Assembly: GCF_004027225.2 (NCBI RefSeq) | Contig: NC_044288.2 | Span: 2,944,719 to 3,008,718 of the forward strand | Length of the DNA stretch: 64,000 nucleotides | Source of the DNA: Strigops habroptila | Taxonomy: Eukaryota; Chordata; Aves; Psittaciformes; Psittacidae | Direction: 5' to 3' | Part shown: one piece after another, positions 23,959 to 58,850 of the stretch | Layout: each line of letters starts with the position of its first letter | Numbering within the stretch: the stretch's first letter is position 1 | Program-made: the position numbers and the translations under genes | The notes under the pieces: model-generated | Seen by the model: only the letters and a program-made list of their open reading frames with translations | Told to the model about the DNA's origin: nothing | Databases searched by the model: none

Positions 23959-26900
23959 TCAGCTGAAGTCCCGGTCCGGCAGCACCAGCGGAGCCACCAA
24001 GGTCCAGAGGTAGAGCAGGAGCCCGGCCCAGCTGGAGCAGATCTTCACCCACACGGCGGTCCAGGGGCTCGACAGCACCTGCAAGCTCTCATCCGGCCTG
24101 GAATCCCAAAGAGCAGCAGCACCCATCACCGTGCTGCAGTGGGTGGCATCTCCCTGCGCATCCCAAGCACAGTGGCAGCCGCCACGCTGGGGAGGGATGG
24201 ATGCTGCGAGCACCAAGCCATGGGTGCAACACAAAGAACACGGAGGAGAGAGGGGAGAACCCCCATGTGCAGGCACGCAGCTCCCCACAGCTTGTCCAAG
24301 TGACCCCACTAGTGCAGCCACAGCACCCCCAGGGCTGGATCCTGGCTCGCCCCACATCCCAAGGGATCCCAGGCTGCAGCAGGGAGCTGGTGAGCCCGGG
24401 CACAACCTGCCATAGGCAGCACTAAGCATAATCAACACTGGTAATGGTGCACATGAAGTGGGTTCTCACTTAGGTGCACCTCAGCAACCAGCTCTGCCCA
24501 GTGTAGGAGCAGGGAGGACACCAGGAGAAGGGGCTGCAGGGGAAGGGGTTGCTCTGCCCACCTGTACCAGTTGGTGAGGGTCATCATGATGTAGAGGGCA
24601 GCGAGGAGGAGGCAGAGGTGGAAGAAGGTGTAGTTGTAGGACACCCCATCCTGCTCGTTGTCATAGGCACGGTGCTCCCCGCGCTCCGCGGCCTCGCTGT
24701 CCACCCCGGCCCCGCTCTCCTCCGTCAGCATCAGCTTGTTCACCTCGGGGTGGTCGGAGGAGCGGATGCTGCAGCGACAGGAGGCTCAGGGATGCTGAGT
24801 TTTGACCCCCCCCCCTCCAGCATCACCTATTCCCTAAGAGCCTCCCTCTGCTCCAGGCAGGCAGAGGGATGATGCAGTCCCCAGGGCCACCAGCCAAGTC
24901 CTCACCTGATGAAGAGGGTGCAGAGGATGAAGATTACGAGCCCCACGATGCTCGGGGCGTCCCACCAGGTTGTCAGTGGCTGTGTGGCTGTTGCTGAGCT
25001 GGTGCTGTTCCTCACCAGCAGTGTGGGGTTACAGGCCTGGACTGGGGGGGACATACAGGGGGTTCAGCACCTTTCCCCAGCACACAGAGACCCAGGAGGG
25101 CAAAGCAGCCACCCCAGTGGGTGCCTCATGTATCCCCCTCCCAAACCAAGGCCGCATCCTGCTTACTTGGTACATTGGCCAAGGCAGCCCAGGTGATGTA
25201 GATGGTGTAGAGGGTGATGAGGGACGCCTGCAGCAACCCCGAGTGTGGCTGAGCCTCCTGCAAACACAACCGTGGGTGCTCAGAGCTGGTCCTGTACCCC
25301 ACAGTGACATGGCCACCAGCCTCCAAGGTGCCCTCCCCATCACCTAACCTGGATCTTGGGCAGTATGGACACAGCAGAGACGATGAGGCAGAGGATGAGG
25401 TTGATGCTGATGAGGACCTTGCCCTCCTTGCAGCCCTCGGGCTTGGTGTAGTAGACGTAGAGCAGCACTATGGCCGCGATGGAGATGGCGTAGAAGATGA
25501 AAGTGATGGTGCAGAGGGCTGAGGGAGGAACCAAACAGGAAAGGGGCTGGAGCAGAGTCCCCCATATCCACCAGCTCAACGTCACCAGCTCCAGAAGGAG
25601 CTTCCCCATCCCTAAACCCTGCATGGTGCCATTGGGACTGACCTGCATACCAGCCCTTGGCGTTGCTCTCGTTTGCGTTGCGCAGCCACAGCTGGCTCCA
25701 GGAGTGGGCAAAGTCGATGAGGAGGAGGAGCTGGATAAGGATGAAGAGGAAGGAGCCGACCACGCCGAAGTAAAACCAGACTTGAGAGAGGAGAAAAACC
25801 AGTCAAGAGCAGGGAAAGGGGGACTGTGGCACAGGGGCACACAGCAGTGGGGATGCTGAGTCCAGCCCTGGCTGAGGGATAACCCGGAGATGCCAGGAGA
25901 GCAGGGGCAGCTCCTCACCTGAGGTGAAGGCACCATCAGGGATGTAGAAGGCCCCCACCGTGATCCCCACCAGCACCAGGAACTTGAAGAACCAGAAGCT
26001 GTGGGAGGAGAGAGGTGGCACAGTTGGGAGCAGGAACCCAGCTCCCAGGGAAGGGGGGGTCTGGTCCATCCCCACACCAGCATCCCTCCTCCGGGATGAG
26101 GGCTCACCCATTCTGCACAGCGGCCCGCGGGTCCTTGCTGCTGCGCACACACACCATGAGGATGGCAAAGAGGAAGAAGAAGGCGGCCATGGCGAAGCCC
26201 ATGCGGTACACAGCCTTGAGGCCCAGGAAGCTGCTGCAGTCAACGCGGGTCTGGACCCCCAACACTGACCCGCTGCCTTCACAGAAGCCGGGGAGCTGCA
26301 ATGGTGATGGGAGGGTGAGCATCATGCCAGCATCCTGCACCCACCACAAACCCTGGTGCCATCAGTGATGCCCGTGACTGCTCCGATGCCACCCATAAAG
26401 CACGTGGTTGGCTTGCTTAAGGACAGCCATGGAGTGACACAGCTAAAGCCAACAGTCATTGCAGGAAAGCTGGGATAAAACCAGCATTTCCCATATAGTC
26501 TTGTCCAGCCTTCACTTAGCTCAGCTGGAGACATCAAACCCTGTGTCTGATGTCCCAGAATGGCTTTAACCTGCCAGAGGGGAGAATGAGATGAGCTCTG
26601 AGGCAGAAGCTCTTCCCTGGGAGGGTGCTGAGGCGCTGGCACAGGGTGCCCAGAGAAGCTGTGGCTGCCCCATCCCTGGCAGTGTTCAAGGCCAGGTTGG
26701 ACACAGGGGCTTGGAGCAACCTGCTCTAGTGGAAGGTGTCCCTGCCCGTGGCAGGGGGTTGGAACTGAAGGAGCTTTAAGGTCCCTTCAACCCAAACCAT
26801 TCCACGATTCTATGACTTGCAAGTCACTTGGCCAGTTGAACCCAAAAAATGGGATGTAGGAAACTTTCCTGGGAAAGATCCGGGAAAACATGCTAATGCA

Positions 26901-29900
26901 TGAAATTATCCCACTGCATCTTCCCCGTGTGGAAAATCAGGGTCAGTAACACCTCTCCCAGTGAGATGCTCAGAAAAAAGGGAACGGAAGCAATATCATG
27001 CCCCAAAAATTCACTTTCTGATTCAGCCCCATGTACCCACCATGAGCTAAACTTCTTCCCCGTGGTGCCCAAGCCCAGCAACCTCCAGGAGTTATTTACC
27101 TTGTGCAGCTCCTTCTCCACAGCAGGGATTATCATAATGATGGACACGAGGGTGCCGAGGAAGAGGAAGAAGGTGAAGACGAGGCGGGAGATGGTGGAGT
27201 TCTTGGTTGAGGGGCAGCAGCCGCAGAGCAGACATGGTGCAGAGCCACAGAGGCAGGACACCTGCAATGAGAGCATCCTGTGTCAGAGGGTTTGAGATCG
27301 GCCCCAAAACACGTGCCCAGGTTGAACCATATGGGGATCTGCCCAGGAATCCGCACCACTGCTTAGAGCTCCTCACCAGCATTGCAGCCTGCAGGACCTC
27401 ATGGAAATGGCCCCAAATCCCACCAAAAGGTTGCTGCAAACCAGAAGAGCTGCAGGAACAAGTTCACTCCAATACCCAACCAACTTGGAAAATGGCACCA
27501 GGAGTCCTGGAGACACCCCTTGTCTTCTTTTCTGCTCCCCCATTTGGATATTCACCCTCCTATTTCATAGAATCACAGAATCCCAGACTGGTTTGTGTTG
27601 GAAGGGACCTTAAAGCTCCTCCAGCTCCAACCCCCTGCCACGGGGGTTGGAAGGGACACCTTCCACTAGAGCAGGTTGCTCCAAGCCCCTGTGTCCAACC
27701 TGGCCTTGAACACTGCCAGGGATGGGGCAGCCACAGCTTCTCTGGGCACCCTGTGCCAGCGCCTCAGCACCCTCACAGGGAAGAGCTTCTGCCCAAGAGC
27801 TCATCTCAATCTCCCCTCTGGCAGGTTAAAGCCATTCCCCTTGTCCTGTCCCTACAGGCCCTTGTCCAAAGCCCCTCTCCAGGTTTCCTGGAGCCCCTTT
27901 AGGCACTGGAGCTGCTCTAAGGTCCCACCTCTCCAGCCTGATCCAGGTCCCTCTGGATCCCATCTCTTCCGTCCAGCATGTCAACTCCACCGCACACCTT
28001 GGTATCACTGAGCCACCAAGCTGTGTGGTCAAGCTTTTTCATGGCCCCTGGTGCCTTCCTTGGATATCCATCCCCCCTCTAAGCTGCAAAGGAAGCTTCA
28101 TCCTTTGCAAGGAAGTTTCATCCTATGCAAACATACTTCATCCAGCCTCTGCCTGGGCACCTCTTGATTTCAGCCTTTTTCTTTCAAAAGCAACGGGTTA
28201 AGAGCAAGGGAAGTCCTGCCCCATTAAGGCAGCACTGGCCATGCTCTCATCCACATCCATTAAAGACTTCCAAAGACACCCTAAGAGCAGGATGGCAAAA
28301 GCCAGCCAAGGGAGTGGCTGCAGGAGAGCCTGTGGTAATGAGGAAGCTTCAGGTTCCAGCCGCTGCAGATGAAAGACTGATCTCTCCAGTTTCACCATCA
28401 GCTTCCTCATGGAACCCAGCTCACTCCCAGCACTACTCACACCTAAGGGCTGCTGTGCTCCCTCTGCCTGCAGGCTGGGAGAGCGTGGATGGAGATGGAC
28501 AAGCACTGTCCAGCCAGTCAGGGAAACACAACAGCATGAACCCAACTACAGCACCCCAACAACAACAACCCCAACACCACCAGGCCGACAACGCCAGCCC
28601 AGCTACACCAAATCAACAGCACCAGTCCAACTAAACCAGCCCAACTACACCAAATCAACAACCCCACCCCAACAACACACCTTCTGCAAGCTTTCACCCT
28701 GGCAAACCCAGGGCTGCAGAGCCTGAGTCAACCCAAAGCAATGCAGAGCAACCAGTTCTTATCCCCAGTTCAATCAATGACCAGCAGGTTAATGAGTACT
28801 GAGCCCACAGGGTCAGGCGTAGGCTTGGGAGGCTGGTGGCTCTCACGCCTGGCTTTATGTTGGCACAATGAGGCTGACAGTCCCCATGAGGTGCCCAAAC
28901 CATGCTGGAGGGCTGCATGAGCCCCCAAGACTCCCATCGCCATGGGCAGCCTTCTGCTGGCAACACCAACTCCATCCCATAAGGAAAGCACCTTGAGATG
29001 ACCGTTCCACTCATGGCAGTGGTAGGCAGAGTCTGGCAAATCATTGGAGGCAGAGAAAGGGAAATACTTCTTGGGTGCTGCAAAGTCTCACTCAGGGACA
29101 GCTTGTAGAGAAAGTGCTGCAGAGGTGGCTGGGCAATCTGGTGCTGCTTTCACCCAAATGATACAGGCTGACCAGGAGTTAGTTTAGATTCTCTTGTTAA
29201 AAACCATGCAGATTTGGGGGGAGTGGATGTTGGTTTTGGTTTGGTTATTTTCCTTCTTGTGGTTTTTCAGTTCAGAATTGAGCTAAAACATCCCATTAAC
29301 CAGCCAGCTCCACTTGAAGGAACAGGAGAATTAAACCTACATAGCAAGTCCCTGCCCTATATAGCAACTCCCTGCCCTATATAGCAACTCCCTACCCTAC
29401 ATAGCAAGTCCCTGCCCATGGCAGGGGGTTGAAACTGGATGACCTTTAAGGTCCCCTCCAACCCAAACCACTCCGTGATTCTATGGCCTGAACCAGAATA
29501 GCTTTTTTGGGGACAAATATCCACAATTAGGCCAGAAACCTCCCCAGCCCTGCTCCAGGGGAAATCCCAGCTTTTCCAGTACCTGCCCATAAGGAAAACT
29601 ATTGGCCATGTGTTACAGACAGGTCCTGCAGACCCTCCCCGCGTACCATCTGGAGTTTCAGAAGCTCCTGTTGGTCAAACCTCCACAGCTTTGAGGTCAA
29701 GTTGCACAACCAGCCCCGTTCCCAGGTTTCCAGGCTCCCGGGTTGGTTCCGCAGCCCTGGCCCCATGCCCGCAGGTGAGGCAACAACAGGAAAGGCAACA
29801 CCAGCCATGGGGCTGCCTGTGTCACTGGGCACAGCGCCCCGAGTCATGCACCCTGCCCTGGGCCATGGCACCCACTGAGCCCCCCTGCCTCCCAGCTCCT

Positions 29901-30905
29901 TCTCTTACTGCATCCCCAGCAGTGAGAACCAGGCAGGACCCAGTCCCTCAGCATCACATGGGTGCAGCAGGACTGGCCTTTCCCCCTTAAGGAATTGGGG
30001 CCAGAACCCCCTGAATTCCCCCAGTGCAGCAGGGCATCACTCCTACAACTCCCCACATCCCCAAGTGCACTGGGCTCCATCACTCCAGGCACCTTCAGAC
30101 TCACCGCTCCCCTCAACCACGACACTCATGAGCCCCAGAGTTATCTGGGGTGAACCCTTTGGGTCTCCCTTGGATTTTCCTGGGTGCAGTGGGATGCCTG
30201 CTCTGGGGATCCTCCCATGTACACAGGGGTGCATCCCCCTGGGTGTCCCTGTATCCCACATGTTCACAGGGCTCCATCCACTCGGGAGTCCCCTGCATCC
30301 CCCCTGGGTGTCCCCTGTATCCCCCGTGTTCACAGGTCCTCATCCCCTCGGGTATCCCTGTATCCCCCATGTACATAAGGTGCATTCCCACAATGCGTTC
30401 CCTGTATACCCCATGTACACAGGACTGCATCCCCCGGGTATTCCCTGTATCCCTCGTGTACACAGGGCTGCATCTTCATAGGGGTCCCTGCATCCCCCCG
30501 GACACAGATGGGTACATCCCCCTGGGTGTCCCCTTCATCCCCCGTGTACCCAGGGATGCATCCCCCCGCGTATCCCCTGCATCCCCCCGGGTGCAGCGCG
30601 GGGGCACCCTCCGGGCTCCCCTTGGACCCCCCTACGTCTCCTCCACCCCTTTGGCTGTACCGTGGCCCATTCCCGGGGGCACCCCCGGGCCTCCCCCTCA
30701 ACCCGCAGCCGCAGCGACTCCCCGCCCCGCGCCGCGCCCGTCGCTGCGGCGCTCGGAGCCGGCGCAGCCCCGCTCCCTCTGCGTGTCCTCCCGGTGTCCT
30801 CCCGGTGTCCTCCCGGTCCCCCCCCGCCCGGTGCCGCCCCGCTGCCCCGGCCGGGCGGGCACTCACGCAGCCGAGCAGGGAGCAGACGCCGAGACAGGCC
30901 CCCAT
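23959..30905 (-). CDS. SERINC2: Serine incorporator 2, ten coding exons
   Basis: SERINC family polytopic membrane protein, 449 residues here against about 455 in human as I recall it. The family is linked to serine incorporation into membrane lipids and to lipid scrambling. Exons in transcript order: 30,867-30,905; 27,100-27,261; 26,108-26,295; 25,919-25,998; 25,643-25,780; 25,349-25,518; 25,167-25,257; 24,906-25,041; 24,562-24,768; 23,959-24,097. All junctions are GT-AG and the phases add up to an open 1,350-base frame. Family landmarks are the start [13 protein letters not shown], the CLCGSAPC cysteine block, RDPRAA-like [16 protein letters not shown], a [15 protein letters not shown] segment and the C-terminal WTAVWVKIC...RDFS. 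Hydrophobic spans near residues 37-59, 100-117, 131-149, 159-180 and 205-227 fit membrane helices, with more in exons 8-10. SERINC2 rather than SERINC1/3 is supported by the ending and by the neighbour FABP3. Intron 1 is large (3.6 kb). Confidence 0.96.
26557..26814 (+). mobile_element. CR1 LINE fragment in SERINC2 intron 2
   Basis: About 260 bp of sense young CR1, from 'aatggctttaacctgccaga' to the tail 'ccattccacgattctatg'. It lies antisense to SERINC2 transcription, between coding exons 2 and 3. It is of the 'gggtgcccagagaagctg' subtype. Confidence 0.9.
27565..28020 (-). mobile_element. CR1 LINE fragment in SERINC2 intron 1
   Basis: Antisense relative to plus, so in the same direction as SERINC2. 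It contains the 3' tail and about 365 bp of standard 3' region. It then jumps to a more 5' CR1 block (around 'ccaggtccctctggatccca'), so a stretch of CR1 is missing internally. A short extra copy of 'gggttggaaggga' occurs at about 27,643-27,655. Confidence 0.87.
28540..28680 (+). repeat. CAA/ACC-rich tandem array
   Basis: A low-complexity segment with two recognisable copies of a 'cccagctacaccaaatcaac' type unit, embedded in caacaacaacc-like sequence. It lies in SERINC2 intron 1. The open frame it creates is compositional. Confidence 0.75.
29338..29416 (+). repeat. 20-bp tandem repeat, four units
   Basis: Four units of the type 'atagcaactccctgccctat' stand head to tail. The last unit runs directly into the truncated CR1 that begins 'gtccctgcccatggcaggg', so the repeat unit shares the CR1 words 'tccctgccc'. 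Confidence 0.85.
29409..29485 (+). mobile_element. CR1 tail fragment in SERINC2 intron 1
   Basis: A 77-bp sense CR1 3' end with the tail 'ccactccgtgattctatg'. Its 5' edge is fused to the 20-bp tandem repeat. Confidence 0.85.
30196..30600 (+). repeat. Minisatellite in SERINC2 intron 1
   Basis: About 400 bp of imperfect units built from 'catccccctgggtgtccctg' and 'tatcccccatgtacacaggg' modules, with a period of roughly 50 bp. It begins about 270 bp inside intron 1 from coding exon 1. The array keeps long frames open on both strands, and these should not be annotated as genes. Confidence 0.85.
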
Positions 30906-31080
30906 GTTGCGGCCGCGGACCCCGCTCCGGTCCCCGCTCCCGCCGCTGGCTCCGCCCGGGGCCCGTCGCTCCCGCCGCGCCTCCCCCGGGGCGGGTCCTG
31001 GCACCCACAAACACCCCCCCCAAGCGGCAGCCCCGGAGCCTCCTTCACCGGGCACCGCCGAGGGGATCCGCTGGCACAGT
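30640..31080. promoter_or_regulatory. CpG island / SERINC2 promoter region
   Basis: A strongly GC- and CpG-rich segment surrounds SERINC2 coding exon 1. No TATA box is evident, as expected for a CpG-island promoter. By analogy with head-to-head SERINC1-PKIB and SERINC3-PKIG in human (from memory), it might also start the divergent PKI transcript; this is inference. Confidence 0.75.
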
Positions 31081-31112
31081 GAGAGCGGCTCCGGGATGCC
31101 CCGAGTGAGGGG

Positions 31113-32850
31113 ATCATAGAATCATGGGATGGTTTGTGTTAAAGGGATCTTAAAGCTCATCCAGTTCCAACCCCCTGCCACGGGCAGGGACACCTTCCAC
31201 TAGAGCAGGTTGCTCCAAGCCCCTGTGTCCAACCTGGCCTTGAACACTGCCAGGGATGGGGCAGCCACAGCTTCTCTGGGAAAAGTCTGTGCCAGCGCCT
31301 CAGCACCCTCACAGGGAAGAGCTTCTGCCTCAGAGCTCATCTCAATCTCCCCTCTGGCAGGTTAAAGCCATTCCCCTTGGCCTGTCCCTCCAGGCCCTTG
31401 TCCAAAGCCCTTCTCCAGGTTTCCTGGAGCCCCTTTCGGCACTGGAGCTGCTCTAAGGTCTCCCCTTGAGGAGCCTTCTCTTCTCCAGGCTGCCCCAGCC
31501 CAGCTCTCTCAGCCTGGCTCCAGAGCAGAGCTGCTCCAGCCCTCGCAGCTCCGGGGCCTCCTCTGAGCTCACTCCAACAGCTCCACGTCCCTCTTGTGTT
31601 GGGGACACCAGAACTGGATGCAGTATCCAATTGGGGTCTCCCCAGAGTGCAGCAGAGGGGCAGAATCCCCTCCCTGGACCTGCTGCTCACGCTCTGGGGG
31701 TGCAGCCCAGCACATGGTGGGGCTCTGGGCTCAAATGCACATTGCCCGCTCATGTCCAACCTTTCATCCACCAGGACCCCCAGGTCCTTTTCTGCAGAGC
31801 TGCTTTCCAGCCAGGCAGCCCCCAGCACATGCTGGTGCTGGGATTGCTCTTCCTGGGGGCAGAACTTTGCCTTTCTCCTTGTTGAACCTTGTGATGTTCT
31901 TGTCAGCCCATTCCTCCAGCCTGACCGTCCAGGTCCCTCTGGATGGCAGCACAACCCTCTGCTACATCAGCCACCCTTCCCAATTCAGTGTCATCTGCAG
32001 ACTCGCTGAGCTGACACTGCCCCATCATCCAGATCATTAATTAAGATGTTAAACAGGATTGGACCCAGTATAGACCCTTGGGGTACCCCACCAGGGACTG
32101 GCCTCCAACTAGACTTGGTGCCACTGGTCACCCACCACCCCTGGACCTGGCCATGCAGCCAGTGTTCAACCCACCTCACCTCGATCCATCTGCATCTACA
32201 GCTTCTCTGTTAGGATTTTAGGGAAGACAGTGCCAAAGGCCTTCCTGAAGTCCAGGCAGGCAATACCCTCTGCTTTCCCCTGGTTACAAATCCAGCCCTT
32301 TCATTGAATAAGTCCATCAAGTCGGTCAAGCATGGCCTCCCCATGCTGACTTCTTAATGTGCCTGGAAATGATTTCCAGGATCAGCTGCTCCACCACCTT
32401 CCCGGGAGTCAAGGTAAAGCTGATAAGCCCATAGTTCCCTGGGTCCTTGCTTGCCCTTCTTGAAGATAGGAGTGATGTTTGCTTTCCTCCAGCCTTCAGG
32501 CTCTTCTCACAGTCACCATGATCATTCAAATGCTGTCAACGCTGGCCTCGCAGTGACATGTGCCACCTCCCTCAGCACTCAGGGGTGCATCCCAGCAGGT
32601 CCCATGGACTTATGTATGTCCGGTTTGCTTAAGTATCCCCTGACCTGATCCTTTTCTACCAAGGGCATGTCTTCCTTATTCCAGCCTTCCCACAGGGTCT
32701 CTGGGACCTGGGATTCCTGAAGTCTTGCAAGTAAAGAGTCAAAGAAGGGGTTCAATTCCTCAGTCTTTCCCATGTCTGGCAGCATCAGTTCTCCCATCTC
32801 ATGGAGCAATGGACCCATATTTTCCCTCTTCCTCCTTTCATCACCTATAG
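31113..32850 (-). mobile_element. CR1 LINE, about 1.74 kb, with RT sequence
   Basis: The longest CR1 copy in the window, antisense to plus. It starts with the tail 'tcatagaatcatgggatgg', passes through the full 3' region (subtype with 'gggaaaagtctgtgcc') and extends into the reverse-transcriptase ORF. On the minus strand, translated fragments show the CR1 RT landmarks [34 protein letters not shown] and FNKEKGKVL. The frame is broken by several stops and frame changes, and the 5' part of the element is absent, so it is inactive. It ends about 200 bp upstream of SERINC2 coding exon 1. Confidence 0.93.
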
Positions 32851-33690
32851 CAGCCCTTCTTGCTATAGGTGCTCTGACAACATACCCTCCATCTCCAGCA
32901 GGCCCACTGGCTCCAGGAGACCCACCAGCACGAATCCACTCCCTCTGTGGGGCCAGACCCCAGGAAAGGGGGTCCAAGGAGCATCTTTCCACTCACAACC
33001 GAGGGTGGGAGCTGGGGCTGGGCCAGCAGCAGGTTTCCCAGCTCTTCTTGGCACATCCACCCGGAGCAGCAAGCGCTACTGTTGGCATGCATAATGCAGG
33101 GGCTGACATCAACTGGGATGTGCTAGCCTGCTTCCAGACCCTAAATTTAGACAGCAAGGAGAGGACATGAGTACAGAGCAGGATTGGGGGGGTATGGGAA
33201 TGAGGGAAGCCAACCTGCCCTCTGTGCCCTTGAGGAAGAGGAGGGTGTCACGCTGCTCGCTCCAGAGGTAAAGCCACAGGGCTTGGCCTCTCATCACTTG
33301 GCACAGGTTAAGCATCCCGGGCTCCCATCAGCTCTCGGTCCGGCAGCAGGAGAGGTCAGAGCCCGGAGCTGCTGGCTGATCCCAGTGGAGCTCAGGTTGC
33401 TGGTCCCGGCAGGGGTGTGCGTTGGGGACCTGCCTGGACTGGCTGTGTGCGGGCACGGGTCTGGCAGCGCCCGCGGGGACATGATGGGCTGGCTCCAAGC
33501 ACGGCCCCCGTGCCGAGGTGGGGGGCTCTGGCAGCTCCTGTCTCTTCCCGGCTGGATATGGGAGCCCTGTGACACCCACAGCAGGAGTGTCATTCAGCCA
33601 CTGTCCTCATGGGAAAGGCAAAGCGGCCACAGAGGTATTTGTCCTTTTGGTCCTGCTATCCCTCTGTGCCTTGTGGGGACATGAGGAGAC

Positions 33691-34054
33691 GGCTCCTTAA
33701 GGGGAGACCTTAGAGCAGCTCCAGTGCCTAAAGGGGCTACAGGAAACCTGGAGAGGGGCTTTGGACAAGGGCCTGTAGGGACAGGCCAAGGGGAATGGCT
33801 TTAACCTGCCAGAGGGGAGATTGAGATGAGCTCTGAGGCAGAAGCTCTTCCCTGTGAGGGTGCTGAGGTGCTGGCACAGACTTTTCCCAGAGAAGCTGTG
33901 GCTGCCCCATCCCTGGCAGTGTTCAAGGCCAGGTTGGACACAGGGGCTTGGAGCAACCTGCTCTAGTGGAAGGTGTCCCTGCCTGTGGCAGGGGTTGGAG
34001 CTGGATGAGCTTTAAGGTCCCTTCAACCCAACCCAGGCTGTGGTTCTGTGATTC
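33691..34054 (+). mobile_element. CR1 LINE fragment
   Basis: About 360 bp of sense young CR1, from 'aaggggagaccttagagcag' to the tail 'gtggttctgtgattcc'. It carries the 'cacagacttttcccagag' variant shared with the copies at 17,651, 31,113 and 51,952. Confidence 0.92.
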
Positions 34055-35555
34055 CAGGAGCTCCCTGTCATGCCGGGAGCAGCAATCCACAGAGCATGGA
34101 GGGATCGGTCCTCCCCACACTGTCCCCTCGCCCCCTTTGGCGGTGCCGCCAGATGGCAGTGCCGGATGAGACCAGTGCACACAGCAGCTGGACACTGGGG
34201 ACGGTGCCTGGGCTCCATCCCTGCTGCAGGATGGCAAAGCAGGGCCCTGGCTGCCAGGAGAGAGAGGGCTTCACCACCCTCAGCATCACCCCCTCGTTGT
34301 CACCTTCTCAGCAGGGGGCTTGAGGGCACCCCAGGACCCACAATGCAAGCACCAGGTTCACAAGTGACAGAGCTGTGGCAGTCCCACGGGCACCAAAGGA
34401 TGCTGGTTTTACACCACACTGCACTATGAGGAATGAGGGATGATGCCAGAGCCCAAGGGCATGTGCCTGCCTCCAGCTCCTCCTTGCAACAGAAGCCCCC
34501 ATCCTGCGTCCCATTGCTCAGCAGGGCTGGGAGCATCCTTGCCCATATACCCCTAAAAAATCACCTTTTTTCTGCTCTGCCTCCCTGTCCACTCCTTCTC
34601 TGCATCACTCAGCATCCTCTAGGCACAAGGGGTCATCTTCTTCCCCCCCTTCACCCAGTGCCTGGTTCATTAGGGGTGAGGGTATCATTTTCTGCCTGCT
34701 GTGGGGTGATATTAGGGCTGGGGGTGGCACCAGACTGGTGGTGACAAGGCCCAGGAGCAGCTTGCCAGGGACTTGGGGGGGACAACAAATGGTCTCGTGA
34801 CTGTATCTGGGACAACAGCAGCTTAGCCGTGGGCGCAGGCAGAAGGGTTCCTGCTGAGCCCCAGCGATGCTGCTCCTGGCTAAACCCACATTACAGTAAT
34901 TAATAATAATTAATAATCGAGCCTGTGTTTGGAAAAGCAGCTAAACCCAGCAAGCATCCTTCAGAGCATCACCCAGTGCACGGCGTAAGGTGCCTTTGGG
35001 GGGTTGGAGAAACCCCTGGTCCATGGGCTTGTCCTACCTCCAGTGCCCTGGGGGCTGGCCCCACTCCTGGATGGGGCTTTTAGGGCACCCAAACCCCTTC
35101 CCTTGGCCACCAGCTGCCAGCAAGCACATCACAGCCTTGTGGTTTGGGTGCTTTGGGGAGCTGCTCCAAGATGTCAGGGTGCTGCTCATCATGGGAGGTG
35201 TGAGGGTCCCCCTGCCCTGCCAGGAGGCCAGGAATGAAGGTTCCCCCCCTGTTTACAGCCAGCAGTGCATGTTCTCAGCTGTGCTGCCTCTCTTGGGGTT
35301 TCCAGCCCATAGATGAGAAGGGGAATGGGCACAAAGCCAGCCTGGGATGGGAAGGACAAATGGAGAAGTCCTGAGATTGAAGCATCTCCCTCCCCCCTTG
35401 TCCAAGGATGCCTTTGAGTAAGGGAATTAGTTTTCCACTAAGCTCTTCCATAATGAACACTCACGGAGCACCAGCAATGGGAATTGCTTGGTCCTTGGTT
35501 ACAGGCAGAGGGGGGTGTTCAGGGTCAGGATTCAAATCCAGTGGAAATGAAGGGG

Positions 35556-51453: not shown

Positions 51454-51609
51454 GTTGGAGCCGGACAGGACCCAGCTGGGGGTCCCCATCCGCCGGGGGG
51501 TCCCTCACTGCCTGTGAGACGTTGGGAGGAGGAACCACCGAGCCAGGGAGCAGAGCAGGACCCTGGGCACGGGGGAGACACAGCACGAGGCCAGGCTGGA
51601 GGGTGCCCG
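51454..51609 (+). other. Candidate 5' UTR exon of the PKI gene
   Basis: A 156-base segment bounded by a pyrimidine tract with cag acceptor (ctgcctccccccag|) and a donor (cccg|gtaagg), about 140 bp upstream of the coding exon. It has no start codon in frame with the PKI product. Splice-signal evidence only; it could be fortuitous. Confidence 0.3.
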
Positions 51610-51654: not shown

Positions 51655-51700
51655 ATGATAATAGACTGGTTTGGGTTGGAAGGGACCTTAAAGTTCATCC
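51655..51700 (-). mobile_element. CR1 tail fragment upstream of PKI coding exon
   Basis: About 45 bp of antisense CR1 3' end ('agactggtttgggttggaag' to 'aaagttcatcc'), ending about 43 bp before the PKI coding exon. It lacks most of the octamer tail. Confidence 0.8.
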
Positions 51701-51750: not shown

Positions 51751-52715
51751 ATGACCGAGGTGGAACCCGTGCTGGACTTCGCATCCTCTGGGAGGACGGG
51801 CCGGCGCAATGCCCTGCCCGACATCCTGGGCTCTCCAGCCGGTGTCAGCCCCTCCGACCTGCCCCTCAAGCTGGCAGAGATGTCCCTGAGCGCAGGTGGG
51901 TGACAAGGACCATGGAGGATGGTGCAGGGCAGGCAGGAACTGGGGCTGCTCATCATAGAACCATAGAATCACAGACTGGTTTGGGTTGAAGGGACCTTAA
52001 AGCTCCTCCAGCTCCAACCCCTGCCACGGGCAGGGACACCTTCCACTAGAGCAGGTTGCTCCAAGCCCCTGTGTCCAACCTGGCCTTGAACACTGCCAGG
52101 GATGGGGCAGCCACAGCTTCTCTGGGAAAAGTCTGTGCCAGCGCCTCAGCACCCTCACAGGGAAGAGCTTCTGCCTCAGAGCTCATCTCAATCTCCCCTC
52201 TGGCAGGTTAAAGCCATTCCCCTTGGCCTGTCCCTCCAGGCCCTTGTCCAAAGCCCCTCTCCAGGTTTCCTGGAGCCCCTTTAGGCACTGGAGCTGCTCT
52301 AAGGTCTCCCCTTCAGGAGCCTTCTCTTCTCCAGGCTGCCCCAGCCCAGCTCTCTCAGCCTGGCTCCAGAGCAGAGCTGCTCCAGCCCTCGCAGCAGCTC
52401 CGGGGCCTCCTCTGGACTCCAACAGTTCCACGTCCCTCTTGTGTTGGGGACACCAGAACTGGATGCAGAATCCAAGTGGGGTCTCCCCAGAGCGCAGCAG
52501 AGGGGCAGAATCCCCTCCCTGACCCGCTGCTCATGCTCTGGGGGTGCAGCCCAGCACACAGGGGGCTGTGCCTGAGCACACACACACAATGTGGGTCACG
52601 TTCGGTCTCTCATCCCTGGTCTCTCCCCACAGGCAGCGCTCAGGACATGCAGTCTCCATCGGCGGAGGTGCCCCCTCCGCAGCCCCCCAGCCCCGAGCTG
52701 AAGGACACATCCTAA
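51751..52715 (+). CDS. cAMP-dependent protein kinase inhibitor, PKIB-like paralogue
   Basis: Encodes a 75-residue heat-stable inhibitor of the protein kinase A catalytic subunit. Coding exons are 51,751-51,895 and 52,633-52,715, joined by a GT-AG phase-1 intron. The coding exon opens after a cag acceptor at 51,743. The pseudosubstrate core FASSGRTGRRNALPDI occupies residues 10-25, with the key Phe, the P-6, P-3 and P-2 arginines and Ala at the phosphoacceptor position. LPLKLAEMSL (residues 37-46) matches the leucine-rich nuclear export signal. Length fits PKIA/PKIB/PKIG (76-78). Residues 20-44 resemble PKIB most, while GRTGRRNA is the PKIA form. The segment before Phe is one residue shorter and carries a proline, and the C-terminal tail is proline-rich and not acidic. 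The intron rules out a retrocopy. It sits between SERINC2 and FABP3, the place of PKIB between SERINC1 and FABP7. No AATAAA is seen within about 1 kb downstream. Confidence 0.92.
51952..52575 (-). mobile_element. CR1 LINE fragment filling the PKI intron
   Basis: About 620 bp of antisense young CR1, from the tail 'tcatagaaccatagaatcac' to 'gtgcagcccagcacac', of the 'gggaaaagtctgtgcc' subtype. It makes up most of the 737-bp intron between the two PKI coding exons. Its internal block 'ttgtgttggggacaccagaa' is shared with the copy at 31,113. Confidence 0.93.
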
Positions 52716-53800
52716 CCCCGCTCCAGGGGGGCCATTGCTGACCAGCGGAGGAAGGAGGAGGCTGCGGAGCATCAGCCCAGCTTCCCTGGCACAGCCGGAG
52801 TCCGCTGGGTTCTCCTCGGTGCTGCCATCGGGCATCATCCCCCCGCCATGGGGCGAGCATCGCACGGGGACCTGCCGGGATGATTCCCAAGGGGCAATTC
52901 CCACCCGGGGCGAGGACTCGAGGGAGGAATGTGTTTCTCCTGGGACACTGAGCAGAGCCGAGCACAGGGGGTTCTCCGGGGGGTTCCTCCTGGCCGCAGG
53001 AGCAGCCTGTGGTGTTTCTAGCTGAGTGTGGTGTTCACTGTGATGTTTTGGGTACCACCTCCGTCTCCTCGCCTTTCTTCCTGCGTGATGCAGGGGCCTT
53101 TTCCAAGGAGGGGAAAGAGGGGATGCGCAACCCCAACATCCCCCCCTAGCCCTTAAGCAAAGCACCCCCTGGCACCCAGCACCTTGCTAAGGGTTCCCAC
53201 CAAGGAGCAGAGCACCCCAGGGTGGTCCCTGCCCCATGCACAGGGTCTCGGCTCCATGGACAGGGGGATGCTGGTGATTTGGGGTGGGGAGCAGGGTGAT
53301 GCTGTTTTGAGCATCCCCCCTATGCCAGCGCCACCCATGGGTGCCCATGCCCGCTCCCCTCCCAAAGCCCTGGGATCCCCTCGTATTCCCTGGGGAAAAC
53401 CCAGGAGGGGGAACAGCAGCAAACGGGTCCTGCAGCGCTTTGGGGGGGGTATGAGATGGAGCCGGGCTTTCCCAGGCTCTGCTCCCCAAAACCTGCTGGT
53501 GGGTGGGATGGGGACCCTCCTGCCCGGGCACCGTGGTGCTGGGAAGGACTTGGGTGGCTGGGTGCTGCCCAGGCCAGGGGCTGCATTCCCAGGCTGGGGT
53601 TTGCTGGTGGGAAGCTGGATCCAGGCAGAGCACGTCGAGCCGGACCCATCTCCATCACGATGCTGACCTATAGCTGTCGCTGTGGGACCAGCAAATGAAG
53701 CCCAAAGCCCAGGTCCACTCTGGCCACCACCCTGGGGGTGACTGGGTGAGGGACAGTGGTGTGGGGCCACATGTGGGGTCACCGTGTCCAGCCAACCCAA
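52716..53800. other. PKI 3' region, no further gene seen
   Basis: Presumed PKI 3' UTR and flank. No canonical poly(A) signal is visible in the first kilobase, so the real end is unknown. Open frames on the minus strand (53,153-54,133) have no recognisable product. Confidence 0.4.
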
Positions 53801-53804
53801 GGAG

Positions 53805-54660
53805 GACACAGCAACATGTGTGTGGATGCATGTGCGTGCATGTGCACAGGGACCCTTGCTCATGGGTGCCTGCGCACATGGGTGCCTCTGTGCATGGAGC
53901 ACCCACATGTGTGAGCACCTTTGTGCATCCATGTGCATGGGTGTTGTGCACACAGTGTGCATGGGTGGCATGTGTATGGGTGCTCCTGTGGATAGATGTT
54001 CATGTGTGCAGGCAGCCATGTGCATGTATGTTCGTGTGCATGCATGTTCATGTGCATGGATGTTCATGTGCATGGACATCCATGTGCATGTACATTCATG
54101 TGGATGGATGTCCATGTGCGTGGATGTCCACACACATGGGTGCTACCACAGGTGGGTGTCCATGTGCATGGGCATGTATGTGCATGCGTGTTAATGCACA
54201 TGGGTGCCCATGTGTGCAGTGGGTGTCTGTGAGTATGGGTGCCCATGTGCATGGGTGTTCCTGTGAGTGCGTGTCCATGTGTGTGAGCGATCATGTGCAT
54301 GGGTGCTCAAGCATGTGAGCGGGTGTCCATGTGTGTGGTTACCTATGTTCATGGGCACGCATGTGTGCGCACATGCATGGGAGCAGGTGGGTGGGTGTCT
54401 GTGTGCATGGGTGTCCATGCAGGGCATGGGGATGTGCTGTTGTGTGTGGGTACCCATGCATGTGGGTGCTCCTATGCATGGGTGCTCCTATGGGTAGATA
54501 TCCATGTGCAGCCGTGTGCACCCGTGTCCATGCTCATGGGCAGGTGTGTGCACACGTGTTCACATGCAGGGCTGCTCGTGTGCATTGGAACCCACATACA
54601 TGGTGTGCCTGTCATGGGTGCCCCTTTGGGTGGGTGTCCCTGTGCCCTGCATGTGCTCAT
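53805..54660 (+). repeat. CATG/TGCA minisatellite, right of PKI
   Basis: About 850 bp of imperfect units of roughly 24-30 bp, built on 'catgtgcatgggtgtccatg' and 'tgtgtgcatgggtgctcc'. The array alternates purine and pyrimidine and matches the composition of the array at 50.6-51.0 kb on the other side of the PKI gene. Translation gives His/Cys/Met/Val-rich strings in every frame, a repeat artefact. Confidence 0.88.
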
Positions 54661-55480
54661 CCACATCTCATGGTCCCACTGCCTCAGGGGGCGGCTGGGG
54701 GGGACATGTGGGACACCCCGTGTCACCCACCCCGTGTCACCCACCCCTCGGGGTCTGTCCCCGTCTCCCCATGGCGAAGGGTCCCGTCGCAGGCAGTGCA
54801 GCAGGAGGTGGCTGAACACGAGCTCTGGCTATTTTTGGGTGCCTGCAATGACACCCTGGGGCCAGAGAGAGGGAGAAAGTGTCCTCGGGTCCCTTCCAGC
54901 CCCTCTGACCCCGCTGTCCCCAAGGCTTGGGGACACGCTGCAGCCAAGGGGGGTGAGGCCACCACCACACACCCCGCCCTAAGGTGGGACCCCCCCAATG
55001 CTGGGGATGTGGGGTCTTGAGGGTTGGATCCTACTGCCACCAGAGCCCGAAGCAAGGGAACACATGTGGGGACATGCTGTGGGTCCCATTGCCCCATGGC
55101 TGTCCTTGTCCCCTGTGTCCCCCTGCCCCGCAGAGCATCACTGAGTGCACACGTGTGTCCCCACACATAGGGATGGGGTCACACGTGTGTGTCCCACACA
55201 CACACACAGAGCAGGGATGAGGGCACACGCTTCCCCACGCTCCCCCCAGACCCCTGACCCCCCTTTCCCGTGCCTCAGTTTCCCCACCCCACCTCCCTGT
55301 CCTCATCACACACCACCTTGAAGGACCCCGCTGCTCTCCCCACATCCTCCCCTGCTCCGACCTCACACAACCCTCCTCCGCGCTCCCGCGGGGCGGTGCA
55401 CACACCCCTGCCTCAGTTTCCCCTTCTCCCTTTGACCACCAAAGCCGCCGAGACCGGACGCAACTCATGACACGATTGAC
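54661..55480. other. Intergenic between minisatellite and FABP3 promoter
   Basis: C-rich DNA with nothing recognisable as a gene. Open frames of 60-200 residues here come from high GC content. Confidence 0.45.
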
Positions 55481-55772
55481 CCGCTGCGCTCTTCCCCATG
55501 CGTGCGCGCTGCCCCAGGGCACGGGGGGCTGCGGGCCGGGGCCGGGGCCGCTGGCGGGGCGCGGGTGGCCGCTGGCAGCGCTGCCGAGGAGGAGTATTTC
55601 TGGAGCGCGGTTCTGCTCTTTCCAATCATGTGATGGGGACATTATTTAAGGCGGTGGCGAGACCAGGCGGGAGCTGCGGGTTGGGCGCTGCTGAACCACG
55701 CTCCGAGCCGGGCCCCGGCACCCTCTGAGCCGCTGAGTGTGACACCCACCCCCCCGCCAGCACCCCCGCACC
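55480..55772 (+). promoter_or_regulatory. FABP3 promoter and 5' UTR
   Basis: A CpG-rich block (about 55,480-55,600) is followed by a CCAAT box at 55,622-55,626, an overlapping catgtg E-box-like word at 55,627-55,632 and a TATA-like TATTTAA at 55,643-55,649. This spacing predicts transcription starting near 55,675-55,680 and a 5' UTR of about 95 bases. Confidence 0.7.
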
Positions 55773-58700
55773 ATGGCCGATGCTTTCGTGGGCACCTGGA
55801 AGCTGGTGGAAACGACCAATTTCGATGAGTACATGAAGGCGTTGGGTGAGTAACGGGGGGGGTTGGAGCCGCGGCATCACCCCCTTTGTGGTTTATATCC
55901 CCCCCCCCCTCCGCACACGCGGCTGTGGTTGGGGGGTGCGGGTGTGAGGGGGGCGCTGCTGTGGGTGGGTGGTTTATGGGGGGGCTCTGGGGGTTGGGCT
56001 GGGTGAAGGGGGTTCATCATTCCCTGCCCGTTTGGGGGGGACACGATGCGACACCCCCCCCCCCCGGGGTGCTGGGAGCTGCTCAGGACCCCTCCAGCCT
56101 TCACCCCCCTCAGCCCCCCATCATCCCAAACCACAGAGTGGTCCATGGGGGGGTGAAACTGGTGAACCCCGCAAACCCAGCTGTGGATCCGGGTGCTGCA
56201 ACGGCAGCATTCCCAGCCCCTTTTCCCATTGCTCCTGTCCTGGATCCCGCCCAAGCACAGCAGGAACACACTGGGGGTCCCCAGGACCACGGGTGGGTGG
56301 TTTTGGGGTTCACCTCCCCCCACCCATGAGGAAGAAGGTGATGCTGGAGGGTGATGCCGCATCCTGCCCCTCCGCGCACCCTCACCCTGCACCCTCAGGC
56401 GTGGGCTTCGCCACGCGGCAGATGGCCGGGCTCACCAAACCCACCACCATCATCGAGCTGGATGGTGACAAGGTGACGGTGAAGACCCAAAGCACCTTCA
56501 AGAACACGGAGATCAGCTTCAAGCTGGGCGAGGAGTTCGATGAGACCACGGCAGACGACAGGCACGTCAAGGTGAGCCCTGACCCCCAAGTGGGACCCCC
56601 AAAAGGGTCTGTGGGTTGCATGGGATGCGGCTGTCACCCCGTGGCTCTGCGGCTCCAGCCTTGTTGCCGATGGAAGGATAAACCCTCTTTGCTCACCGGG
56701 GTTGGGGTTCAAGCCTGGTCTCCTTCACCCCATTTTCAGCTGGGGTGTCCCGGGAGCAGCACGGGGAGGGCAGGGAGGTTGTGCAAGAGCTGGGCTTGCT
56801 CAAGAGGAGGCGAAGGGATGTGGTGGGGTGGTAGCAAGAGGAGTCCCTGCTCCAGGGCGGGGATCGGGGCACAGAGCTCTGTGTTGAGCCCCCTCTTTGC
56901 TCTCTGGGCAGAGCTGCAGCAGGGATGGAGCAGTTGGGTGATGCTGAACCCAATCAGGCTGTTCCTCCCCATAAGAGCAAGGACAAACCACCTCAAGAAG
57001 GGTCCAAGCTCCTTCCTTGGCCTCTCCCCCCTGCACAGACATTGTCCCTTGCAGCACTGGCCCAGCCCCTGCTGCTTCTTAGCTCCCCAGCAGCTGATCC
57101 CATGCACCATCACATACACTGTGCATGGGGCAGTCGCAGCCCTGTGCCCCACAGCCCAGGACGCATCTCGGGGGGAGGCTTTGGGGCTCATTGGACACAA
57201 AACCCCTTCCCCAGCCCTAAAGCAGCAAGTGCAAGAGCTGGGCGTAGAGTGAGGATGGGCTGAAATGGGATGAGTGCTGGGGGATACAGGGCAGTGGATC
57301 CATGTCTGCAGCGGATCCGTGTCCACAGCAGATCCGTGTCCACAGCGGATCTTTATCCACAGCAGATCTCTGCTCACACTGGCTGGAGCTGGTGGAAACT
57401 ATGCTCGGAGCAGCAAAGCATGTGACCAGCACCAGCCCCTGCCACAGCCCAGGACGTGTCCTTCGGGTGCTCTTCGGCTGGTGGCCAAAGGGGACAGGAG
57501 GCTGCCCGGGCCCCATGGGGCTGCACAGGATGGGGCTGCGGGGCTGCCACCCTGTGGGGCACCCCAGATATGTGGGTCCAGGGCCATGGGGCTCCCAAAT
57601 TATGCAAGGAGATGAGTTGTGGGGAGACCCAAGGTGTGCAGTCTGGCTGGGGGCACCCAAGGTCTTGTGGCGCAGTGGGGACAACACCATGGGGAGACCT
57701 GAGCTCTGGGTGGGGGGGGAACCAGAGCCATAGGGGGACCCGAGGGACTCTGGAGGAGCTGGGTGTGGGGCACAGGGCAGGATGTGGCCCTGGCAGCCCT
57801 GGTGCTGGAGCCTGTCCCGGCACAGCTCTGGGCTCACACTAACCTTGGCACCGGCGGGGCTTGGGTGCTGAGTCAGCAGCAGCAGCTGTGCAAACAGCAG
57901 CCCAGGAGCACGGGCGTTTGCTGGGTCAGCCCCTCCAAAACCCTGCCCAGGCCCTCTGGGTGCGGATCAGAGCCCTGGGACCTGCCCTGATACCTGCCCC
58001 GATGCCTGCCCTGATACCTCCCCTGGTACCTGCCCTGATACCTCCCCTGGTACCTTCCGTGATACCTGCCCTTGGTAATGGTGGGTCTTGTTCTCTCCCC
58101 TCAGTCCTTGGTCACACTGGATGGAGGCAAACTGGTCCACGTGCAGAAGTGGGATGGGAAGGAGACATCACTGGTGCGGGAGCTGAAGGATGGGAAATTA
58201 ATTCTGGTGAGGAAATAGAAACGGTTGGAAAGAAGCACAAGTGGTAAGGTTGTTGAAAATAGGTGGATTAGTGGGAAAACCAGGGAGAAAAACTGCTCTG
58301 GGGATGCAAGAAGCAAAATCATTATGTAGAATCTATTTAAAAGCCATAATGGGAATGGTGTAACATAAGGGGTGCAGTCATGCTTTAAAAAAGAGGAGGG
58401 GGGGCTTCAAGAAATGTGGAGAGGGGGTTTGGACAAGGGATGTAGGGACAGGCCAAGGGGAATGGCTTTAACCTGCCAGAGGGGAGATTGAGATGAGCTC
58501 TGAGGCAGAAGCTCTTCCCTGGGAGGGTGCTGAGGCACTGGCACAGGGTGCCCAGAGAAGCTGTGGCTGCCCCATCCCTGGCAGTGTTCAAGGCCAGGTT
58601 GGACACAGGGGCTTGGAGCAACCTGCTCTAGTGGAAGGTGTCCCTGCCCGTGGCAGGGGTTGGAGCTGGAGGAGCTTTAAGGTCCCTTCAACCCAAACCG

Positions 58701-58850
58701 GGCTGTGAGTCTGCAACCAGAGGGGTTCAGCCCAGGACAGGGCAGGCAGGAGCCGCACCAGCATCACAACTAACCCCCCCCTATTTCTACCACCAGACTC
58801 TCTCCATGGGCAACGTCGTGTCCACCCGCACCTACGAGAAGGCCACATAG
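55773..58850 (+). CDS. FABP3: Heart-type fatty acid-binding protein, four exons
   Basis: Cytosolic carrier of long-chain fatty acids, chiefly in heart and skeletal muscle, and a member of the intracellular lipid-binding protein family. Exons 55,773-55,845, 56,399-56,571, 58,105-58,206 and 58,797-58,850 give 73, 173, 102 and 54 coding bases, the standard FABP gene layout, and 133 residues, the same length as human FABP3. The N-terminal lipocalin/FABP signature is [18 protein letters not shown] (residues 7-24). The carboxylate-binding residues Arg107, Arg127 and Tyr129 (in TRTYEK) are present. It resembles human FABP3 closely (for example [10 protein letters not shown] and [10 protein letters not shown]), more than FABP4 or FABP7, and the neighbours SERINC2 and ZCCHC17 agree. 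All splice sites are GT-AG, and nothing appears broken. Confidence 0.97.
57296..57378 (+). repeat. 18-bp tandem repeat in FABP3 intron 2
   Basis: Four to five units of the type 'ggatccgtgtccacagca' stand head to tail within the 1.5-kb second intron. Confidence 0.85.
57978..58076 (+). repeat. 12/24-bp tandem repeat near FABP3 exon 3
   Basis: Units of the type 'cctgccctgata' and 'cctcccctggta' repeat for about 100 bp and end roughly 28 bp before the exon 3 acceptor, next to the likely branch-point and pyrimidine-tract region. Confidence 0.85.
58401..58708 (+). mobile_element. CR1 LINE fragment in FABP3 intron 3
   Basis: About 310 bp of sense young CR1, from a diverged 'ggggcttcaagaaatgtgga' start to 'caacccaaaccgggctgtga'. 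It lies in the same orientation as FABP3 and ends about 90 bp before exon 4. Confidence 0.9.

Follow-up and report, generated by a model that had tools for sequence, protein, structure and literature searches.

The window analyzed here, a stretch of 64,000 nucleotides (C12:2944719-3008718) from a probably avian assembly whose 89 contigs total 1.15 Gb, harbors a gene of the PKI family in the interval between SERINC2 and FABP3, for which we use the working name PKI4. The names SERINC2, FABP3, PKIA, PKIB, and PKIG are our own assignments, given by likeness and position. The features of the locus, in window positions, are as follows.

23971..27258, minus strand: SERINC2, seven exon matches of PF03348, bounding the PKI4 interval
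51454..51609, plus strand: possible 5' untranslated exon of PKI4 with AG and GT sites at its borders, predicted from sequence only
51751..51895, plus strand: PKI4 coding exon 1, 145 nt, opening with ATG and carrying the pseudosubstrate FASSGRTGRRNALPDI and the export-signal-like stretch LPLKLAEMSL
51896..52632, plus strand: PKI4 intron, 737 nt, GT-AG, phase 1, containing an interspersed repeat
52633..52715, plus strand: PKI4 coding exon 2, acceptor CTCTCCCCACAG/G, Ser/Pro/Glu-rich C-terminal tail, stop TAA
53694..53699, plus strand: AATGAA, weak poly(A) candidate of PKI4, the sole hit to the scanned set of variant hexamers in the 3 kb past the stop
55773-55844, 56398-56571, 58105-58206, and 58797-58847, plus strand: FABP3 coding exons, bounding the PKI4 interval

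Exon 1 ends in phase 1 at the donor CAG/GTGGGT, and the joined coding exons form a single open frame (MTEVEPVLDFASSGRTGRRNALPDILGSPAGVSPSDLPLKLAEMSLSAGSAQDMQSPSAEVPPPQPPSPELKDTS) of 228 nt, that is 75 residues, with 0 internal stops. The product matches the Pfam PKI profile (PF02827) at 73.8 bits (E 1.4e-20; curated cut-off 25 bits), residues 2-63 aligning with positions 1-64 of 69, and as a profile score this is far in excess of chance. The closest solved relative returned by a PDB sequence search is PKI alpha (chain 3wyg_D, E 4.3e-08), and the gene follows the exon plan of the family, also seen in PKIA, in which a phase-1 intron past the export-signal stretch separates two coding exons. The initial annotation had described an intact two-exon PKI gene between SERINC2 on the minus strand and FABP3 on the plus strand; the frame, the splice sites, the Pfam match, and both neighbors bear this out, the coordinates and the 51895/52633 junction proved exact, and PKI4 is confirmed as an intact PKI-family gene. 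The notion that the match is a chance resemblance is refuted by the E value, and that of a processed PKI pseudogene by the intron, which has good splice sites and follows a phase-1 donor such as the other PKI genes also have; no point was found in support of either, and together they retain a negligible probability.

PKI, a mostly disordered protein, is PKA's classic endogenous inhibitor, and the family is marked by heat stability and by inhibiting the catalytic subunit of PKA at nanomolar concentrations. The pseudosubstrate of PKI4, FASSGRTGRRNAL, reads F-x4-R-x2-R-R-N-A-hydrophobic, with Ala at the phospho-acceptor place and no break relative to PKI alpha, from which we presumptively carry over the residue roles. 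By homology, PKI4 would act as a pseudosubstrate block of the catalytic subunit, in which Phe10, Arg15, Arg18, and Arg19 (Met counted) would dock in the PKA cleft, Ala21 would stand at the place of the substrate Ser/Thr, and Leu22 would occupy the P+1 site. With Met counted, these numbers equal those of PKI alpha with Met left out, owing to the missing residue. The stretch LPLKLAEMSL, in which the hydrophobic spacing is retained as judged by eye from the alignment with PKI alpha, is a putative leucine-rich nuclear export signal that may direct CRM1 export of the bound kinase from the nucleus; the roles of both the docking and the export residues are assumed to be those of PKI alpha. Neither PKI4 nor PKIB has an equivalent of the PKI alpha Tyr7, and with this residue absent and another missing before Phe10, the potency of PKI4 may differ from that of PKI alpha. 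A title on PKI isoform potency and amino-terminal residues appears in the reference list of a review (PMC6143667).

A genome search with PF02827 returned at least four PKI loci out of seven candidates, both counts being lower bounds.

C1:30010572, minus strand: PKIA
C6:9254923, minus strand: PKIB
C12:2996472, plus strand: PKI4
C13:11101760, plus strand: PKIG

In all four genes, exon 1 (145 to 151 nt) ends at a phase-1 donor. The second exons of PKIA, PKIB, and PKIG come from a scan in which phase 1 was presupposed and the candidates were ordered by composition; those of PKIA and PKIB were the top rows, the former agreeing with the PKI alpha tail, whereas that of PKIG, the least certain of the three, was the fifth of seven rows and was chosen for its resemblance to PKIG. 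The initial annotation had raised the possibility that PKIB is absent from its SERINC1-FABP7 place, but the gene is present there on C6 of the same genome. Since PKIB is among the four loci found, PKI4 is not PKIB moved elsewhere, and a relocated PKIB is ruled out. Relatives were absent from the 40 stretches that matched a search pattern among viral contigs and from the 496 stretches taken from a collection of genome contigs.

The neighbors of these genes extend the comparison. Searching the genome with PF03348 gave 37 SERINC exon matches, seven each on C6, C12, C13, C26, and C9 and two on C1; we take the genes on C6, C12, and C13 to be SERINC1, SERINC2, and SERINC3 and those on C26 and C9 to be SERINC5 and SERINC4. 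All four PKI genes have a SERINC head-to-head with them, at about 25 kb on C12, 81 kb on C6, 31 kb on C13, and 70 kb on C1. Among the 12 FABP matches obtained with PF00061, the nearest beyond PKI4 and PKIB are FABP3, whose start lies 3 kb past PKI4, and FABP7, matched about 16 kb past PKIB, in mirrored order and orientation. In order and orientation, SERINC2-PKI4-FABP3 on C12 matches SERINC1-PKIB-FABP7 on C6, as had been proposed from human gene order; SERINC3 and PKIG lie head-to-head on C13, and on C1 three FABP matches lie about 1.1 Mb from PKIA. C13, which carries PKIG, gave no PF00061 match, and the FABP gene of this block may thus have been lost or relocated. In the gap between SERINC2 and PKI4, a Pfam scan confined to 27300-34501, in three plus frames and one minus frame, detected no domain at an E value of 0.01, and further genes may lie in the gap.

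The two SERINC matches on C1 make the paralogon fuller than the initial annotation had held, in that a SERINC relic also adjoins PKIA. The exons concerned, at C1:30080211-30080363 and 30109440-30109619 (loci L005 and L008), are open and share 51% and 53% identity with SERINC3 and SERINC1 exons. When seven exon profiles, derived from all five SERINC genes, were run over 80 kb at PKIA, two profiles matched the relic exons (1.5e-14 and 3.5e-15); the best E value of the other five in the same 80 kb was 0.07, and the exon 1 background reached 0.01. Of the two relic exons, the first lacks a GT at the donor place, and the second retains both splice signals. This is probably a decayed fourth member of the SERINC1-3 group. 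SERINC1, 2, and 3 are cited as ohnologs in the part of PMC8316019 that treats them.

Three further families, picked because they are known or published as belonging to these regions and hence not a random sample, were placed by genome profile search. Four strong syndecan matches fall on C12, C6, C1, and C13, with a fifth, weak one (1.5e-4) on C10; all 19 EYA exon matches lie on the same four contigs (four on C12 and five each on C13, C1, and C6), single EYA exons falling below the whole-protein cut-off of the family; and the six TPD52 matches are shared two each by C6, C13, and C1, with none on C12. We take the gene named TDE2l to be SERINC2. The relevant part of PMC1464127 shows that the four syndecan regions are paralogous, places FABP3 and TDE2l beside SDC3 in human and mouse, and pairs SDC1 with SDC3 and SDC2 with SDC4. 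That pairing predicts that the PKI of C12 should be nearest to the PKI of C6, that is PKIB, as found. PKI4 thus sits in the fourth of the paralogous chromosome blocks that carry the PKI genes, and the placement of SERINC, FABP, syndecan, EYA, and TPD52 supports the earlier proposal of an ancestral SERINC-PKI-FABP triplet quadrupled by the two vertebrate genome duplications.

The age of PKI4 was approached through its divergence from the other copies. Exon 1 of PKI4 is 76% identical to that of PKIB, 55% to that of PKIA, and 40% to that of PKIG; the exon 1 local alignment of PKIA with PKIG, which spans only 24 residues, was left out of the comparison. Between PKI4 and PKIB, pS is 0.77 and pN 0.131 over exon 1, to be set beside a pS of 0.74 and 25% nonsynonymous differences for SERINC1-SERINC2 and 90% synonymous and 16% nonsynonymous differences for exon 2 of FABP3-FABP7; with synonymous sites saturated in all three pairs, these values give a lower bound on the split and not a date. 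By these substitution counts, the PKI4-PKIB divergence is old and constrained. When 4.5 kb around PKI4 was compared by blastn (E 0.01) with the surroundings of PKIB (30 kb), PKIA (30 kb), and PKIG (20 kb), only exon 1 (70%, with PKIB alone) and an interspersed repeat aligned. A recent segmental duplicate is rejected, since the flanks are unaligned except for the repeat, and the synonymous saturation, together with the restriction of alignment to exon 1 and the repeat, indicates that the split from PKIB is old.

A tree of seven sequences over about 50 residues (IQ-TREE with ultrafast bootstrap, human sequences provisional) placed PKI4 beside bird and human PKIB with a support of 53, and the clade of PKI4 with PKIB at 77; none of four topologies was rejected (p-AU 0.77, 0.52, 0.28, and 0.14), the 1000 resamplings of the AU test being too few according to the IQ-TREE warning. 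In the best tree, PKI4 falls outside each of PKIA, PKIB, and PKIG, in agreement with the distinct fourth clade for which the initial annotation had proposed to test, but the rival topologies are not rejected. A PKIB copy that arose later, in birds or reptiles only, and was inserted into the SERINC2-FABP3 interval could draw on the topology that sets PKI4 beside bird PKIB (p-AU 0.52) and on the 76% identity of bird PKIB to PKI4 over exon 1, compared with 70% to human PKIB (PKI4 to human PKIB being 57%, with the human sequences provisional). Such a copy, however, would need to have landed with its intron in the homologous slot of a paralogous block and in the matching orientation, its synonymous sites are saturated, its flanks and intron are unaligned bar the repeat, and PKIB is still in place. 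We regard this origin as very unlikely; the tree alone cannot decide the matter, and the duplicate, which the initial annotation had recognized as a threat to its reading, is not favored once pS, the unaligned flanks, and the homologous slot are considered. It is of note that SERINC1 is nearer to SERINC3 (71% identity) than to SERINC2 (62%), so the pairing of the SERINC genes does not mirror that of the PKI genes. Based on the intact two-exon gene, the single PKI on each of the four paralogon contigs, and the presence of PKIB as well, PKI4 is in all likelihood the PKI ohnolog of the SERINC2-FABP3 block, derived from the two early vertebrate genome duplications and nearest to PKIB.

The sequence at its presumed transcript ends bears on whether this ohnolog still works. 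Neither AATAAA nor ATTAAA occurs in the 3 kb past the PKI4 stop (52716-55715), compared with six occurrences at PKIA, six at PKIB, and three at PKIG over 3 kb each; GC over this distance is 63% for PKI4 and 37-48% for the other three genes, and FABP3 and SERINC2, in the same window, have such signals at 58-59% GC. The acceptor just 5' of the start codon has a short pyrimidine tract, and a repeat fragment (51658-51699) lies about 50 nt upstream of that codon. The lack of a canonical poly(A) signal, the short tract, and the repeat fragment would suit a true fourth ohnolog that no longer works here, having recently lost its expression with the frame still open, but we consider this unlikely: the start, splice sites, frame, and stop are all intact, pN is 0.131 against a pS of 0.77 relative to PKIB, the pseudosubstrate is unbroken, and the AATGAA at 53694, which a GT-rich stretch follows, may serve in place of a canonical signal. 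PKI4 is most likely a working PKA inhibitor, as judged from its likeness to PKI alpha. The interspersed repeat inside its intron, at about 51952-52567, is presumably CR1-like, and related copies occur near PKIB and PKIA. Between PKI4 and FABP3, at about 53800-54640 of the window, lies a degenerate GTGCATGGGTGTCCATGTGCATG-type repeat stretch.

The PKI of the SERINC2-FABP3 interval is not known in mammals and was presumably lost there. It is likely that early jawed vertebrates carried one PKI gene in each of four SERINC-PKI(-FABP) blocks, that the fourth PKI, beside FABP3, survives in functional form here and was lost in mammals, and that the fourth SERINC, by PKIA, decayed. If this reading holds, the three-isoform picture, drawn from mammals, is incomplete. 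The isoforms are given as three, and their ablation in mice as being without apparent phenotype, in the sections of the review that deal with them (PMC6143667). Neither a fourth PKI nor a PKI-SERINC-FABP synteny appeared among the literature matches listed, and automatic annotation of PKI4 may exist in public databases. With a fourth PKI outside mammals, the family count would change, and the gene would provide a natural variant of the pseudosubstrate that lacks PKI alpha's Tyr7, as well as a lineage in which PKA inhibition is split four ways; the four-fold SERINC-PKI block with its SERINC relic also illustrates clearly how ohnologs are retained and lost.

With respect to known systems, PKIA (PKI alpha), from which the inhibitor peptide PKI 5-24 derives, resembles PKI4 in its GRTGRRNA core, its export-signal-like stretch, and its exon structure, whereas PKI4 lacks Tyr7 and Ile11 and has another tail. 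PKIG shares with PKI4 the phase-1 donor of exon 1 and a head-to-head SERINC neighbor but differs in its 40% identity over exon 1 and in having no FABP match on its contig. The syndecan/matrilin paralogon (PMC1464127) is comparable in that the four contigs with PKI genes are also those of the strong syndecan matches; PKI has 0 occurrences in the main text of that article, and the main text of PMC8316019 holds 0 occurrences of PKI, FABP, or synten-, and its passages on the SERINC ohnologs name no fourth SERINC of the SERINC1-3 group. PKIB, finally, is like PKI4 in the phase-1 donor of exon 1, in NALPDILGSPAG, and in the order and orientation of its SERINC-PKI-FABP block, whereas PKI4 lies on another contig, has one residue fewer before Phe10, carries Thr16 in place of Ala, and ends in a different Pro-rich tail.
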